Assembly (NCBI RefSeq): GCF_030435705.1 | Contig: NZ_CP129382.1 | Location: 1,984,001-2,048,000, forward strand | Reading direction: 5' to 3' | Origin: Rhizobium sp. SSA_523 | Lineage (GTDB): Bacteria > Pseudomonadota > Alphaproteobacteria > Rhizobiales > Rhizobiaceae | Length of the DNA stretch: 64,000 nt | Shown: piece by piece, positions 23,656-29,274 of the stretch | How positions within the stretch are numbered: position 1 is the first letter of the stretch | Layout: each line of letters begins with the position of its first letter | The notes under the pieces: model-generated | Databases searched by the model: none | Told to the model about the DNA's origin: nothing | What the model saw: the letters and a program-made list of their open reading frames with translations, nothing else | Position numbers and translations under genes: made by a program

Positions 23656-23829
23656 GGACAGCCCACCCGCCTCCCTTTGGCGCTCGCGCAGCGGCAGCAC
23701 GACGCCGCGCGAGGCGCAATAGGCCAGAAGCGACAGCATGATGGCCGCGCCCCAGAGCCAGAAGATCGCATGGCCGGGCTGAAGCGTTCAGGAACAAGAT
23801 CGAACATCAAGCCGGCAAGGAGAAGGACA
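23644..23829 (-). pseudogene. Decayed 3' remnant of a membrane-protein gene
   Basis: On the minus strand, two frames read as parts of one membrane protein. AFVLLLAGLMFDLVPERFSPA lies in one frame and HAIFWLWGAAIMLSLLAYC, with a tail LPLRERQREAGG, in another; the second frame has a stop just before it. One indel joins them, and no start or upstream part survives. It ends at 23644, overlapping the VOC gene. The remnant breaks off where the AT-rich leader of the next gene begins, which suggests an old rearrangement. Family not identified. Confidence 0.4.
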
Positions 23830-23893
23830 AAAGCGCAGGATCCCCTTGTATAGAAGGCAGCGAATCAGCCATTATACAGTAAATGGTTCGCTT

Positions 23894-23928
23894 ATATCTT
23901 CATATTACTGTTATATTTTTGAAGATAT
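23894..23928. promoter_or_regulatory. AT-rich inverted repeat in the leader of the first glycosyltransferase-like gene
   Basis: ATATCTTCA (23894-23902) and TGAAGATAT (23920-23928) are perfect 9-bp arms around a 17-nt AT-rich loop. It lies 22 bp before the start at 23951, within about 120 bp of sequence that is far more AT-rich than its surroundings. It could be an operator or an mRNA hairpin; no matching regulator is known. Confidence 0.5.
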
Positions 23929-23950
23929 TAGAATAAAATACAAGGAAGAT

Positions 23951-24829
23951 ATGACGCAGCTGCTTTTCTCCCTTCCCGTGCATGAACGGCCGGATATCGT
24001 CCGCGGGCAGATCGAAAACATCAATTTCTTCGCGCCGGGATCGCATATTGTCATTCACATTGCGCAGCTGGCGGCGGATCTGCGCGATGAATTCCTGCAG
24101 TTTTGCGCTTTCGACAATGTCACCATCAATCCCGCCTGCCTCGAAACCGTCTGGTCGAGCGGCATTCTGCACACCCATGTCAGCAATTTCGAGCATGCAA
24201 GGCAAATCGGCATCGGCTTCGACAAGATCGTCCTGATCTCCTCCAATGAAATGCTGATCAAGCCGGGGATCAGCGATTATCTGTCGCCCCTTCCGGTCGG
24301 CGCCCAGACCGAGGTCTTCGACGATGCGGAAGACTGGGCGGTGTTCGATCGTGACCATCTGGCGCTGCCTGCCATGCAGAAATTCCTGGCGAAGCTGGAT
24401 CTCCCTGTCTTTTTCGGCGGTCAGGCGGAAGGACAGTTCTTTCACGCCAATATCTTCGAGTTCATTTCCGAGCTCTACCAGGAATTCTTCCCCATGGGCC
24501 CGGTGGGGTTCCCGATCGAGGAAGTCGTTCCGCCGACCATTGCGGCGCGCCTGTCGCTCTTGGGCGTCGATATCGCGCCGCCGGTCACGCTGTGCGATTA
24601 TTGCATCGACACCAAGATCAACCCCGCCCTCATCGAGCAGATCCGCCGCGGAACCGGCACGATCTTCGGGCGGCGGACGCCGCGCATGCTCAAGCCGCCC
24701 CATCTCAACCGATCGCTGCTGGCAGGCGTTTTCAGCGTCAAGCGCGTGCCGCGCGAGGATTGCGAGCTGAGGCGCTATATTTGCGGGCTGATGCGCCATC
24801 CCGCCGATCCCGTCCTGCAGACCGCCTGA
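23951..24829 (+). CDS. Unassigned protein, glycosyltransferase-like (core-2/I-branching pattern), copy 1
   Basis: 292-residue soluble protein, closely related to the gene 200 bp downstream. I do not recognise a named family, but the layout resembles GT14 (core-2/I-branching) glycosyltransferases. LLFSLPVHERPDIVRGQIENI corresponds to the N-terminal strand-helix, ETVWSSGILHTHVSNFEHA to the conserved Trp region, DKIVLISSNEMLIKP to the acceptor-loop strand, and FFGGQAEGQFF with GFPIEEVVPPTIAA to the late Gly-Gln and acidic motifs. No signal peptide, so cytoplasmic. AAGGAAG precedes ATG 23951; the longer frame upstream is AT-rich leader. The facing nucleotidyltransferase/kinase/HAD operon suggests a role in building a surface glycan. 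Confidence 0.55.
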   Translation: MTQLLFSLPVHERPDIVRGQIENINFFAPGSHIVIHIAQLAADLRDEFLQFCAFDNVTINPACLETVWSSGILHTHVSNFEHARQIGIGFDKIVLISSNEMLIKPGISDYLSPLPVGAQTEVFDDAEDWAVFDRDHLALPAMQKFLAKLDLPVFFGGQAEGQFFHANIFEFISELYQEFFPMGPVGFPIEEVVPPTIAARLSLLGVDIAPPVTLCDYCIDTKINPALIEQIRRGTGTIFGRRTPRMLKPPHLNRSLLAGVFSVKRVPREDCELRRYICGLMRHPADPVLQTA

Positions 24830-25029
24830 GCGCGTGAGCGCGTGGACGCCTGAGCGCGGGCTGACGATGCCGCCCGCCGCCGCCTGTGCAAGGCGAAGGG
24901 AATCATCTAGCGTCGGCTTTGCTAATATCATGGCCGATGATGGTTTTCAGCGGCCCGCATCGATCATTGAAGAGGCGGGCATTCTTCTCGTTGGCATAGT
25001 CACGCTCTTGCAAACGATGAGGATATCGG

Positions 25030-25878
25030 ATGACGCGGTTGTTGTTCTCGCTACCCGTGCATGAAAAGCCGGACATTGTCCGGGACCAGATCGACAACAT
25101 CAATTATTTCGCGCCCGGCTCGCAGATCATCATCCACATTGCGCAGCTGGCGGCCGGGCAGCGGGACGAGTTTCTGCGGCATTGCGATGTCGAGAACGTC
25201 ACCTTCAATCCGGAGTCGCTGGAAACCGTCTGGTCGGGTGGAATCCTCCACACGCACATCAGCAACTTCGAACACGCGCAGGCGATCGACCTTCCCTTTG
25301 ACCGGATCGTGCTGATCTCGTCCAACGAATTGCTGGTGAAGGAAGGCATCGGCGCGTATATGGACACCTGCCTGATCGGCGCACAGACGGAAGTCTACGA
25401 GGATTCCGCCGACTGGGGCGTGTTTCGCGAGGCTCATCTGCAGCTGCCGGGCATGCAGCGCTTTCTCGCCAAGCTCAACCTGCCGCTTTTCTTCGGCGGC
25501 CAGGCGGAGGGCCAGTTCTTTCCCAAGAATATCTTCCAGATCCTGTCCAATACCTATCGCGAGTGCTTTCCCATGGGCCCGATCGGCTTTCCGATCGAGG
25601 AAGTGGTGCCCGCCACCGTGGCGGCGCGCTTCGCCTTTACCGGCGTCGACGTGGTGCCGCCCATTACCTTCTGCGATTACTGCACCAATCTCGAGATCGG
25701 ACCGGATTTCGTCGAGCAGATCCGCCGCGGAAACGGCAGCATCTTCGCGCGCAAGGTGCCGCGTGCGCTGCAATCGCCGCATGTCAACAAATCCGTGCTG
25801 AAGAGCGTCTTCAGCGTCAAGCGCGTGCCGCGGGAGGATTGCGATCTGCGCCGCTATATCCGCGGCCTGATGCAATAG
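25030..25878 (+). CDS. Unassigned protein, glycosyltransferase-like (core-2/I-branching pattern), copy 2
   Basis: 282-residue paralogue of the preceding gene, collinear over its whole length, with most positions identical by eye (LLFSLPVHEKPDIVRDQIDNINYFAPGS, ETVWSGGILHTHISNFEHA, FFGGQAEGQFF, GFPIEEVVPATVAA, FSVKRVPREDC). The conserved acidic, Trp and Gly-Gln positions match those of copy 1, so both copies could be active, perhaps with different donors or acceptors. The final segment VKRVPREDCDLRRYI is the best-preserved stretch between copies and may be a docking motif. It has its own start with an upstream GAGGAT. The two genes probably arose by tandem duplication and divergence. Confidence 0.55.
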   Translation: MTRLLFSLPVHEKPDIVRDQIDNINYFAPGSQIIIHIAQLAAGQRDEFLRHCDVENVTFNPESLETVWSGGILHTHISNFEHAQAIDLPFDRIVLISSNELLVKEGIGAYMDTCLIGAQTEVYEDSADWGVFREAHLQLPGMQRFLAKLNLPLFFGGQAEGQFFPKNIFQILSNTYRECFPMGPIGFPIEEVVPATVAARFAFTGVDVVPPITFCDYCTNLEIGPDFVEQIRRGNGSIFARKVPRALQSPHVNKSVLKSVFSVKRVPREDCDLRRYIRGLMQ

Positions 25879-25915
25879 CGCAGGCCTGGTTCGGACCGGA
25901 TCGGTTCGGTCCGGA

Positions 25916-26971
25916 TCAGTTCTCGAACCGCAGCTTCATGCCGAGCCGCGGATCGGAGGGCACGAGTTCCAGCGCATGGGCGGTCGAGAAGGGAACCGAT
26001 GCGTCCGGCGCGCTGACGATCCCGTAGCGCCCGAGCGGCAGGTCGAAAATGATGCGATCGACCGGCAGGCCGAGATCCGACAGGCGCGCCTGCGTCCGCT
26101 GGCGCTCGCTTTCCGGCCGGGTGGACAGAAAGACGATGGAATGGCCTTCCGCCAGCAATTGCCGGGTCGCCGCCACCGCTTCCTCGATAGCCGGAACCTG
26201 ATCGTAATGCGGCGCGAAATAGGCGCTGCCATGGCCGAAGATGAAGCCGTCGATCAGCACGAAATAGGTGTTCTGCCGCTGGAGCTTCTGCCGCCATTCG
26301 CGGATCGTCCCCCAATCCTCGTAGTCGCTGACGAAGCGGGTGGAGCAGAAGGCGCCACCGACGATCAGATGGGCGATGATATCGGAGGTATAGATCTCCC
26401 GCGGCGCCTGATCGCTCCCGCCGCTCAGGCTGCGATAGGCTTCCAGGTAATGCGCCGGATCGCGGAAAAAATAACCGCCGACCGAAAAGACATCGGAAAT
26501 CACCTGCTTCTCGACGATGGAGAGGATGAGGCCGGCCTCGTTGGTACGCACATAGCTCTTGTTGCGGGGATTGATACTGTCGAAATGGTTGAGCGATTCG
26601 ACGCTGACATAGTTATAGGCCTGCTCAATGTCGGAAAGCGCGAAACTATTGTCGCTGTCCTTGACGAGAAAGGGTTCCGAAAGACCCGTCTGCTGCAATG
26701 TCCTGGCCACCGTCTCGGGCTGGCTGGCGGTCGGCTGGTCCAGAACCACGACTTCGATCCGCCGCCCGAAGGCCGCCCGCAGGCCGGCGCGCGCATCATA
26801 TTTCTCGTCGTGCTCGCGAAGGATCGTGACGATCAGGTCGTCCAGATTGAAATCCAGCCGCCGCACGGCTTCGGTGATCATCGGGCGGCCATTGCTGCAG
26901 GGCAGCATCCATTTGGGCGCCATGCCGGGAAAGCGGCTGGAGCGGCCTCCGCAAGGAACGATCACTTTCAT
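25916..26971 (-). CDS. Nucleotidyltransferase fused to a HAD-like domain
   Basis: 351-residue two-domain protein. Residues 1 to about 230 form a sugar/alcohol-phosphate nucleotidyltransferase: GGRSSRFPGMAPKWMLP (8-24) is the NTP-binding loop with the catalytic lysine, FLVKDSDNSF the metal-binding aspartate region, and VEKQVISDVFSVGGYFF the product side. Residues about 240-351 look like a HAD/LNS2-type domain (VFLSTRPESERQRT then IIFDLPLG), but the expected DxDxT nucleophile site reads LIDGFIFGHG, so phosphatase activity may be lost. ATG overlaps the upstream kinase stop (ATGA). Likely product is a nucleotide-activated small precursor for glycan decoration; the true substrate is unknown. Confidence 0.75.
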   Translation of the reverse strand: MKVIVPCGGRSSRFPGMAPKWMLPCSNGRPMITEAVRRLDFNLDDLIVTILREHDEKYDARAGLRAAFGRRIEVVVLDQPTASQPETVARTLQQTGLSEPFLVKDSDNSFALSDIEQAYNYVSVESLNHFDSINPRNKSYVRTNEAGLILSIVEKQVISDVFSVGGYFFRDPAHYLEAYRSLSGGSDQAPREIYTSDIIAHLIVGGAFCSTRFVSDYEDWGTIREWRQKLQRQNTYFVLIDGFIFGHGSAYFAPHYDQVPAIEEAVAATRQLLAEGHSIVFLSTRPESERQRTQARLSDLGLPVDRIIFDLPLGRYGIVSAPDASVPFSTAHALELVPSDPRLGMKLRFEN

Positions 26972-27915
26972 AGTCTGTCTCCTGAAGTCCGCGCCAGAAG
27001 ATCTTCCAGCCGCGCCAGGACGAAATCCCGCTGCTGGGCCTCATGGGCATAGGGAATGATGCGGGCGAGGTGGATGCCGAGCAGCAGTTCCTTCAAGGGG
27101 CCGGCTGCGGCGCCGAACCGACTGCCGGCAAATCCGTTCAGCCGGTCCTGGACGTAATGCGTCACGCCAGCCGGCAGCGGCGGCGAATGGCGGGTGTACC
27201 AGCCGGCTTTCAGATCCTGTTCCAGCTTGGCCGCATCGGCCAGCCAGTGGTCGAAGAAACTGTCGAGAAGATCGATGAAGATCAGCTCGTTGCGATCGGT
27301 GATCAGGATGTTTTCCAGCGTCATGTCGCCATGGCAGGCGCTGGGCGCAAGCCGGTCCGGCATGTCGACCCGCTCGATCGCGTCCAGCAAACCATGCAGG
27401 GCCTGCTGCGCCCGCTGGTCGGCAGGGCCGGTCTTGTCGAGGATCTCCCGGCATTTCATCCGGGCGACCGTGCGGGGCGAAAACCCGCTGGTCAGATCCT
27501 CCATGCCCGAGAGGCGCGTGAGGCTTTCCAGCAGCCGGTCGACGACGCAGACGACATCGGGGAGATCGGCGCTGCGCAGAAAGGCGATGCCATCGCGGCC
27601 GCGCACGAATTCCATGTCGAAGAAATACAGGCCGGTTTCCAGAATGCCCTCATCCAGCACGCGCGGCGTGCGCGCGCAGCCATCCAGCAGGCCGGAGATC
27701 AGCCTCTGCTTGATGGCCTGGGCCTGCAGGCGGACATTGCCGGCCGGCGCGGCGGAGATCTTGCGGACAAATGCCTCCTGCCCCTCGCTGCGGATCAGCA
27801 GGATCCTCGCCCCGGAAAACCCCGTCAGTTCGATTTCCGCGCCGGGGCCGCTCTCGGCGGTGGCCGGCGCGGGTACCGGTCCGGCCGGCAGGCGGGGAGA
27901 GAGAGGATGTGCCAT
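26968..27915 (-). CDS. APH/choline-kinase-like phosphotransferase
   Basis: 315-residue kinase-fold protein of the aminoglycoside/choline phosphotransferase superfamily. The C-lobe has the Brenner-type motif SACHGDMTLENILIT (catalytic Asp, metal-binding Asn) followed by ELIFIDLLDSFFDHW (DFG-equivalent aspartate). The N-terminal part (LTGFSGARILLIRSEGQEAFVRKIS) resembles the nucleotide-binding glycine loop and lysine strand. Middle gene of the HAD-kinase-nucleotidyltransferase operon: the HAD gene ends one base before its ATG, and its own stop overlaps the nucleotidyltransferase ATG. Kinase plus nucleotidyltransferase recalls LicA/LicC (choline activation), an analogy only. Substrate unknown. 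Confidence 0.78.
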   Translation of the reverse strand: MAHPLSPRLPAGPVPAPATAESGPGAEIELTGFSGARILLIRSEGQEAFVRKISAAPAGNVRLQAQAIKQRLISGLLDGCARTPRVLDEGILETGLYFFDMEFVRGRDGIAFLRSADLPDVVCVVDRLLESLTRLSGMEDLTSGFSPRTVARMKCREILDKTGPADQRAQQALHGLLDAIERVDMPDRLAPSACHGDMTLENILITDRNELIFIDLLDSFFDHWLADAAKLEQDLKAGWYTRHSPPLPAGVTHYVQDRLNGFAGSRFGAAAGPLKELLLGIHLARIIPYAHEAQQRDFVLARLEDLLARTSGDRL

Positions 27916-28524
27916 TCATCGCCTCCAGGCCGGCAGGGCCAGCCGCACGTCGAAGACGGCCATGCCGGCTTTTGCGGCCGCCTGCACCCCGTCATCCATG
28001 TCCTCGAAGACAAGACAGCGGTCGGGCGACACCGACAGCGCCTCGGCGGCCTGCAGATAGCCTTGCGGATCCGGCTTGCCGCGCGTCACATCGCTGCCGG
28101 TCACCGTCACGCGGAAGATATCCGTCCAATTCAGGGCCGACAGCGTGATCTCGACGCTGCGCCGCGAGCCGGAGGAAACGAGCCCGATCGGATAGGCGCG
28201 GCCCAGAACCGGCAGCAGCAGCGCCGTCGGCAGCGGCCTTGGTGGCGTTTCCTGGAAAAGCCGCGCGGCGAGCGACACCTTCTGCGCATGGATCTCGTCC
28301 GCCGAGGCCGAACAGGAACGCCCCGCCACCAGCCGCGGAATGGTTTCCCGCGCCGCGCCGCCGGAGGCCGCCAGGAAATCCTCGAAGGCGAGGCTGAGCC
28401 CGTGATCGCCAAGCACGCGGCGATAGGCCTCGTAATGCAGAGGCATCGTATCCACCAAAGTGCCGTCAAGGTCGAACAAGATCGCCTCGATGGAGGTCTG
28501 CGAAAGCCGGCCGGCGAAATCCAT
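27916..28524 (-). CDS. HAD-superfamily phosphatase, beta-phosphoglucomutase-like
   Basis: 202-residue HAD-IA hydrolase. Motif I is AILFDLDGTLVDTMPLHYEAY, motif II lies in GLVSSGSRRSVE, and motifs III/IV in GSDVTRGKPDPQGYLQAAEALSVSPDRCLVFEDMDDGVQAAAKAGM. The cap insert between motifs I and II is the small helical type used by phosphoglucomutase or sugar-phosphate phosphatases. The ATG at 28524 is used; the TTG two codons upstream is possible. It is the first gene of the three-gene operon that runs through the kinase and nucleotidyltransferase, so it may dephosphorylate or isomerise the same phospho-intermediate. An imperfectly understood inverted repeat lies just upstream. Confidence 0.82.
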   Translation of the reverse strand: MDFAGRLSQTSIEAILFDLDGTLVDTMPLHYEAYRRVLGDHGLSLAFEDFLAASGGAARETIPRLVAGRSCSASADEIHAQKVSLAARLFQETPPRPLPTALLLPVLGRAYPIGLVSSGSRRSVEITLSALNWTDIFRVTVTGSDVTRGKPDPQGYLQAAEALSVSPDRCLVFEDMDDGVQAAAKAGMAVFDVRLALPAWRR

Positions 28525-28917: not shown

Positions 28918-29274
28918 ATGGCCCGCAAATACAAGGAAAAGATTGAGGCCTGGTACCAGCCGCCCCAGCCGGTCATCTGTCCGCTCTGCGACCGGGAAAT
29001 TCCCGAGGATCAGAGGGATGAGCACCACCTTGTGCCGAAAAGCCGGGGCGGCCGCGAGACGCAGACGCTTCACCGCATATGCCACCGGCAGATCCACGCG
29101 CTGTTTTCCGAAGCCGAACTCGAAACCGATTATGCAAGTATCGAGGCTCTCCTCTCCCATCCCGAAATGGCAAAGTTCAAGGCCTGGATCTCCCGCAAGC
29201 CGCCCGGCTTTTTCGACGGGACACGCCGCAGCAAAAGGCGCCGGGAGATGGGAAATCCGGCCGAGCGCTGGTAG
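28918..29274 (+). CDS. HNH endonuclease family protein
   Basis: 118-residue protein with an HNH nuclease motif. The zinc-binding pair Cys21-Pro-Leu-Cys24 is followed by DEHHLVPKSRGGRETQTLHRICHRQIH (about residues 34-60), which supplies the catalytic His, the second zinc pair at Cys55 and the final His60. The C-terminus is basic (TRRSKRRREMG), consistent with DNA binding. HNH proteins of this size are common in rhizobial chromosomes, and many are not part of a mobile element or restriction system; no methylase or recombinase is adjacent. Activity on DNA is inferred. AGGAAGGGG precedes the ATG at 28918. Confidence 0.85.
   Translation: MARKYKEKIEAWYQPPQPVICPLCDREIPEDQRDEHHLVPKSRGGRETQTLHRICHRQIHALFSEAELETDYASIEALLSHPEMAKFKAWISRKPPGFFDGTRRSKRRREMGNPAERW

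Follow-up and report, generated by a model that had tools for sequence, protein, structure and literature searches.

We examined five adjacent genes, here called A to E, in a 64,000-nt stretch of DNA from Rhizobium sp. SSA_523 (GCF_030435705.1, NZ_CP129382.1, positions 1,984,001-2,048,000 of the forward strand; hereafter the window). The genome comprises 5.48 Mb (5,475,343 bases) in four contigs. Two paralogues, A and B, face a minus-strand operon, E-D-C. We propose that A and B are putative glycosyltransferases of the GT14 structural type, and that the operon would supply their donor. The features, in window positions, are as follows.

Gene A, 23951-24829, plus strand: predicted GT14-like glycosyltransferase paralogue, 292 amino acids (aa), with both the Glu-pair motif FPIEEVVPPT and the motif FSVKRVPRE.
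Gene B, 25030-25878, plus strand: predicted GT14-like glycosyltransferase paralogue, 282 aa.
Gene C, 25916-26971, minus strand: N-terminal sugar-1-phosphate-type nucleotidyltransferase domain (residues ~1-230) and C-terminal HAD domain without the nucleophile.
Gene D, 26968-27915, minus strand: APH/choline-kinase-like small-molecule kinase, 315 aa (PF01636, E-value 7e-11), with HGDxTxEN and ID motifs.
Gene E, 27916-28524, minus strand: beta-PGM/YqaB-type HAD phosphatase, 202 aa (PF13419, HAD_2, E-value 4e-27).
Leader of A, 23845-23950, plus strand: AT-rich, GC 0.29.
Left island scar, 23683-23781, minus strand: remnant of an MFS-like gene, 33 C-terminal codons (tblastn 70% over 33 aa).
Right flank, 28918-29274, plus strand: HNH-like gene that marks the insertion site (HNH_5 slightly below cut-off; related genes occur in 26 of the 40 genus genomes).

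The open reading frames (ORFs) lie as an earlier note on this DNA had described them, with A and B facing a coupled operon in which D and C overlap by 4 bases and E directly abuts D. The same note had claimed AT-rich leaders in the plural; only that of A qualifies, since GC is 0.60 for B and 0.48 for E. The decayed gene it saw at one edge is indeed a remnant: its full-length counterpart, 431 aa and open throughout, stands at the same site in a relative, G035 (L027 4810-6102). The MFS-like label of remnant and counterpart was assigned by eye. The ratio of nonsynonymous to synonymous substitution (dN/dS, NG86) is 0.16-0.28 for A against B, for each of them against the G035 gene, and for C, D and E against their counterparts at locus L008, with dS of 0.9-1.6, near saturation.

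A and B share 67% identity and are the sole two matches to this family in their own genome. Over almost their entire length they are predicted to adopt the GT-A fold in its GT14 variant, which agrees with the GT14 likeness first suggested from conserved positions; the check for a transferase fold was run and did not refute it. An unknown fold, considered as a candidate, is ruled out by this predicted structure. Identity to solved GT14 members is 11-12%. In a two-step alignment, E191 is in register with the catalytic E320 of C2GnT-L. K264 and R265 sit where the basic, diphosphate-binding K401 of C2GnT-L lies, and hhalign pairs R265 with K401. The N-terminal LxVH and LSGxDxPL-like stretches are likewise in register with GT14.

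Several sequence results weigh against this assignment. Neither protein matched anything in Pfam, even at an E-value of 1, or in NCBIfam, and PF02485 (Branch) matched 0 of 40 members of the A/B family. The C-terminal half alone gave no significant profile match to GT14, and a profile built from three GT14 sequences gave no significant match to A/B. Among the 40 family members the invariant glutamate is E190, while E191, the residue in register with E320, is nearly invariant. A search of PDB sequences with the A/B family profile returned nothing, and PF02485 has no match in the SSA_523 genome.

We consider it very likely that A and B are GT14-like transferases. They are best described as soluble, putative GT-A glycosyltransferases with a GT14-type structure and with sequences beyond the reach of the Pfam Branch model. 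Metal independence and inversion would be predicted for them. With GT14 proper (core-2/I-branching N-acetylglucosaminyltransferases and peptide O-xylosyltransferases; PF02485) they share the predicted fold, a glutamate at the catalytic place, the N-terminal stretches and possibly the basic residues of the C-terminal motif. Unlike GT14, they fall below Pfam detection, are short (282-292 aa) and are accompanied by nucleotidyltransferase cassettes.

Three viral contigs (L031, L032 and L033) carry distant relatives of A/B at 26-27% identity, with an APH-like stretch 2 kb away in L031. Phage records held no A/B match. A PHROGs scan of eight A/B members and distant relatives gave three matches at E-values of 0.069-0.088, which we take as chance.

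The operon combines a HAD phosphatase, an APH-type kinase and a nucleotidyltransferase. The nucleotidyltransferase domain of C matches PF12804 (E-value 3e-6) and is matched best by 4evw, UDP-glucose pyrophosphorylases and GlmU; the HAD matches of C are weak. The profile of D reaches choline kinase 4r77 weakly (E-value 1.2e-4), second after ACAD11. E scores 127 bits to TIGR02009, under its cut-off, and all NCBIfam equivalog matches shown, with MupP among those for E, are likewise below their cut-offs. The activation logic of kinase plus nucleotidyltransferase, as first proposed, is supported by the Pfam and profile matches of D and C.

The parallel then drawn with LicA/LicC is weak. In that scheme D would phosphorylate an amino alcohol or polyol, C would make a cytidine diphosphate derivative, and A/B would transfer a phospho-group, not a sugar. 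The weak match of D to a choline kinase is what the operon shares with that pathway. However, C resembles sugar-1-phosphate nucleotidyltransferases, and no LicD was recognised nearby, although no search was aimed at LicD. We regard this scheme as improbable.

The earlier note had described C as a nucleotidyltransferase fused to a HAD-like domain. In the window its motif I has Leu in place of the nucleophile Asp, so the domain looks catalytically dead by sequence, and we reject it as the working phosphatase of the cassette. The state of the nucleophile follows the presence of E. At the five loci that hold E (the window, L008, L064, L065 and L066) the residue is Leu or Ser and never Asp. At the loci where no E was found in the stretch examined (L067-L071 and L108, which are five genomes, with L071 at a contig end) it is Asp in six of six. 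Among the 120 C homologues listed of 357 in total, the SSA_523 protein included, motif I was recognised in 115, and Asp occurs in none. The two sets of C also diverge in overall sequence (~48% or more versus 30-34% identity to C), and for this reason the Asp/no-Asp split may represent one event. In our reading, C carries a putative relict HAD domain whose job may have passed to E.

Does this operon belong with A and B? A single scan of genome contigs yielded 19 A/B loci in 15 genomes. E-D-C adjoins A/B in the window, at L008 (Rhizobium sp. BK376) and at L013 (R. alvei; the same locus as L064), in differing gene order. The earlier note had asked for co-occurrence elsewhere; the check was run, and the two neighbouring groups are found together, so the candidate that they never meet outside the window is ruled out. 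The five-gene set as a unit fares less well. It recurs, but E-D-C is not obligatory, and in 13 of the 15 A/B genomes another cassette takes its place. This second type consists of N1 (nucleotidyltransferase-like), N2 (a double nucleotidyltransferase of 497 aa), a HAD protein and a protein U. It adjoins A/B at L009, L010, L011, L027 (G035), L077 (an R. rosettiformans plasmid) and L078/L192 (a P. flavum plasmid); in Acetobacter, part of it lies 5 kb from A/B. All 15 A/B genomes hold some cassette: kinase D in 2 (BK376 and R. alvei) and N2-type genes in 13 (6 full, 6 split and 1 half).

Wider samples agree. Across the taxonomic family, A/B match in 9 of 394 genomes and the C query in 26 of 394, with an overlap of 7 (Fisher p 8e-8, ignoring kinship; 5 of the 9 belong to one genus); this count keeps all nine A/B rows, including the weak G142 and the split G407, and takes two draws of 394 genomes as identical. 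In the genus, A/B occur in 4 of 36 genomes, all 4 with a cassette, and the type-2 cassette occurs in 3 of the 32 others (p 6e-4), after dropping five weak N2 rows (G001, G002, G015 and G022, E-values 1e-4 to 5e-4; G009, E-value 6e-7 over 120 residues). Five plasmid records carry A/B. Four are among the 28 with N2, and the fifth, from Caballeronia, has an N2-like ORF immediately upstream. Across the phylum, 2 of 299 genomes match A/B, SSA_523 included. These counts overlap, as several genomes appear under a G number and again through a locus. In addition, equal values for the longest contig (4347, 24332, 29939, 88659 and 471366) recur in the A/B, C and D protein lists, which indirectly suggests that five further contigs carry all three.

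Against a functional link stand the loci where one partner is missing. A cassette is adjacent at only 5 of the 19 A/B loci and partial at 5 kb in 1; the stretch examined shows none at the other 13, which carry single or tandem A/B. G006, G017 and G033 have a cassette without A/B. G407 has an A/B homologue split into pieces ~2.8 kb apart (G407:C1:2679631-2683296), and no N2 or C match. Since every one of the 15 A/B genomes has a cassette and cassettes also occur without A/B, the transferase seems to need the cassette, whereas the cassette does not seem to need the transferase.

The same data bear on a simpler possibility, that E-D-C is a salvage operon unrelated to A/B and adjacent to them by chance in an insertion hotspot. 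MupP-AmgK-MurU recycling uses the same set of activities, a HAD phosphatase, an APH-type kinase (AmgK is an APH-family kinase) and a nucleotidyltransferase, and at L065 and L066 E-D-C stands with no A/B in view. Yet three genomes (window, L008, L013/L064) pair A/B with E-D-C in differing gene order, and none of the 15 A/B genomes lacks a cassette. The likeness to MupP-AmgK-MurU is one of activities; C bears a dead-looking HAD domain, and the operon here is accompanied by glycosyltransferases. Chance adjacency therefore strikes us as unlikely, and we prefer the reading in which E-D-C serves A/B.

Some features of the type-2 loci deserve mention. A Pfam scan of the L011 copy identifies N2 as a double nucleotidyltransferase; in RefSeq plasmids N2 is labelled "glycosyltransferase family 2 protein" (L077 11662-13155, L190 15396-16880), probably a misannotation. 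Protein U is blank in Pfam in three homologues; one gave GDPD at an E-value of 0.054, and its GDPD-like look was judged by eye. A conserved protein of ~235 aa, blank in Pfam where scanned (L190), adjoins type-2 cassettes at L177 9245-9967, L190 13242-13949 and L209 13264-13968. L012 (1473-2315) has A/B and shares neighbours with L009-L011 but lacks the cassette next to A/B; its genome carries a type-2 cassette at another place. Two plasmid A/B loci adjoin toxin-antitoxin genes (L078 7041-7747; L077 16988-19041), and L077 also has an integrase.

The insertion site itself bears on cassette exchange. Both flanks of the window locus are conserved in G035 at 74-82% identity, and there a single A/B gene (77% to B) occupies the same site and faces a type-2 cassette. 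G018, G012, G006 and G017 have the MFS-like and HNH-like genes side by side, with none of these genes matched between them. This empty site, together with the distribution of A/B in the genus, supports the accessory status proposed at the outset. The A/B tree groups A, B and the G035 gene in a single clade (100/100) whose internal branching order is not resolved, and on this tree the distribution of the two cassette types needs at least three changes. The G035 protein is identical to a protein of Allorhizobium pseudoryzae at 279 of 281 positions.

What do A and B modify? The acceptor was first suggested to be a surface glycan, and in one version of this the cassette would make an unusual nucleoside diphosphate sugar for A/B to attach as a side branch on lipopolysaccharide, capsule or exopolysaccharide. 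Relatives of the operon do occur in such settings. E-D-C at L065 sits in a cluster of exopolysaccharide type that includes genes of the Wzx and Wzz families, and L066 looks alike by eye. The E-less D-C pairs of L067-L070, whose fused HAD keeps the catalytic motif, are framed by two ORFs of one kind; both of those at L067 and one at L068 were scanned, and all three proved to be WavE (PF07507). L067 also has an ABC transporter. These WavE and exopolysaccharide neighbourhoods tie D-C chemistry to surface glycans, and in Caballeronia a distant A/B relative lies beside WavE, glf and ABC transporter genes. However, the L065-L071 stretches contain no A/B match, and the neighbours of A/B in the window, read from ORFs with few of them scanned, include no gene recognised as polysaccharide-related. 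Polysaccharide decoration is a tentative proposal.

A giant repeat protein may be the acceptor instead. Here a GT41 (OGT-like) enzyme would start Ser/Thr glycans on an ALTTAQ giant protein, and A/B would extend or branch them with the cassette unit, as in mucin core-2 branching. The P. flavum plasmid carries, in a single run across the record start, A/B, N1, N2, HAD, U, Glf, a hypothetical protein, a TPR-GT41 protein (PF13844, E-value 5e-67) and an ALTTAQ protein. In N. alkalisoli, the gene for a 1,686-aa ALTTAQ-repeat protein (PF20080, 61 stretches) ends 36 bp ahead of A/B. Rhizobium sp. BK376, with the window's cassette type, has Glf, GT41 and ALTTAQ genes 12 kb from A/B and E-D-C, and the type-2 cassettes of G1097, G1098, G1100, G1101, G006 and G017 adjoin ALTTAQ and GT41 genes. 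The chance of the ALTTAQ-A/B linkage, seen in 3 of ~12 A/B lineages, is p 8e-4, a crude figure that assumes two ALTTAQ clusters, 20 kb on either side and 5 Mb, with lineage and cluster numbers judged and flanks unequal. Ser plus Thr make up 24-27% of the three giants measured.

Several observations count against this reading. No ALTTAQ, GT41 or Glf gene was matched in 1,551,550 of the 5,475,343 bases of the SSA_523 genome, in the stretches examined at other A/B loci (L009-L015, L017-L027, L077, L079/L191), or in those around the cassettes of G035, G221, G033, G1094, G1096, G1099, G1102, G1103 and G1104. In G006 and G017 the cassette comes with GT41 and ALTTAQ genes, yet A/B are missing. ALTTAQ proteins are common (57 plasmid records, against 28 with N2 and 2 with both), and ALTTAQ-GT41 pairs occur with no A/B or N2 in view (L193, L197). 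A. pseudoryzae has an ALTTAQ gene on a different replicon, and neither GT41 nor Glf lies within 14 kb of it. HMW1C/GT41 glycosylation of large adhesins in the cytoplasm offers a parallel in that GT41 enzymes lie beside giant repeat proteins in several relatives; it differs in that no GT41 or giant gene was found in the examined part of the SSA_523 genome and A/B are GT14-like, not GT41.

Initiation by GT41 followed by A/B is a possibility that we hold with reserve, and an ALTTAQ acceptor in the relatives is equally doubtful. More speculative still is a bacterial counterpart of mucin-type branching, in which GT41 primes ALTTAQ surface proteins, a GT14-like enzyme that pre-dates or is convergent with animal core-2 adds a unit set by the cassette, and strains switch glycan by swapping cassettes at a fixed site. 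ALTTAQ giants (L177 10818-14999, L016 4902-9962, L192 6433-9864, L190 21107-25759; PF20080 in the two scanned) several times lie beside a TPR-GT41 protein and a UDP-galactopyranose mutase, in what looks like a general protein glycosylation cluster.

From the predicted fold, the conserved motifs, the association by genome and by site, and the different cassettes at one site, we infer the following scheme. E would strip phosphate from a phosphorylated precursor; D would then add a phosphate to the compound that E released, probably at its anomeric position; C, through its N-terminal domain, would couple the phosphorylated compound to a nucleotide; and A/B would transfer the activated unit. The supply cassette would be swapped for N1-N2-HAD-U while the transferase stays. 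In this order of reactions the cassette product would be the A/B donor, and presumably a sugar, although the substrate of kinase D could be a non-sugar, which counts against the scheme. That E-D-C supplies the donor is probable; for the whole, GT14-type A/B fed by E-D-C with an exchangeable supply cassette, we estimate a probability of roughly 0.6. The acceptor may be a surface glycan; linkage in some relatives points instead to an ALTTAQ-repeat protein rich in Ser and Thr, on which a GT41 enzyme would act first. Among the matches listed in literature searches on bacterial GT14, WavE, LicC/choline kinase with HAD, ALTTAQ and GT41, this gene set is not described; in PMC12887879, the GT14 matches are the word GT140.

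With A and B, a fold family known chiefly from animals, where it acts in mucin core-2 branching and proteoglycan initiation, gains a bacterial branch that Pfam does not see, and the genomic setting of A and B predicts their donor pathway. Loss of the nucleophile from the fused HAD domain where a free HAD gene exists predicts a division of labour between C and E. The GT41/ALTTAQ link in some relatives makes a protein O-glycosylation system directly testable. Finally, differing donor cassettes at one site, with the transferase kept, amount to a natural experiment on donor specificity.

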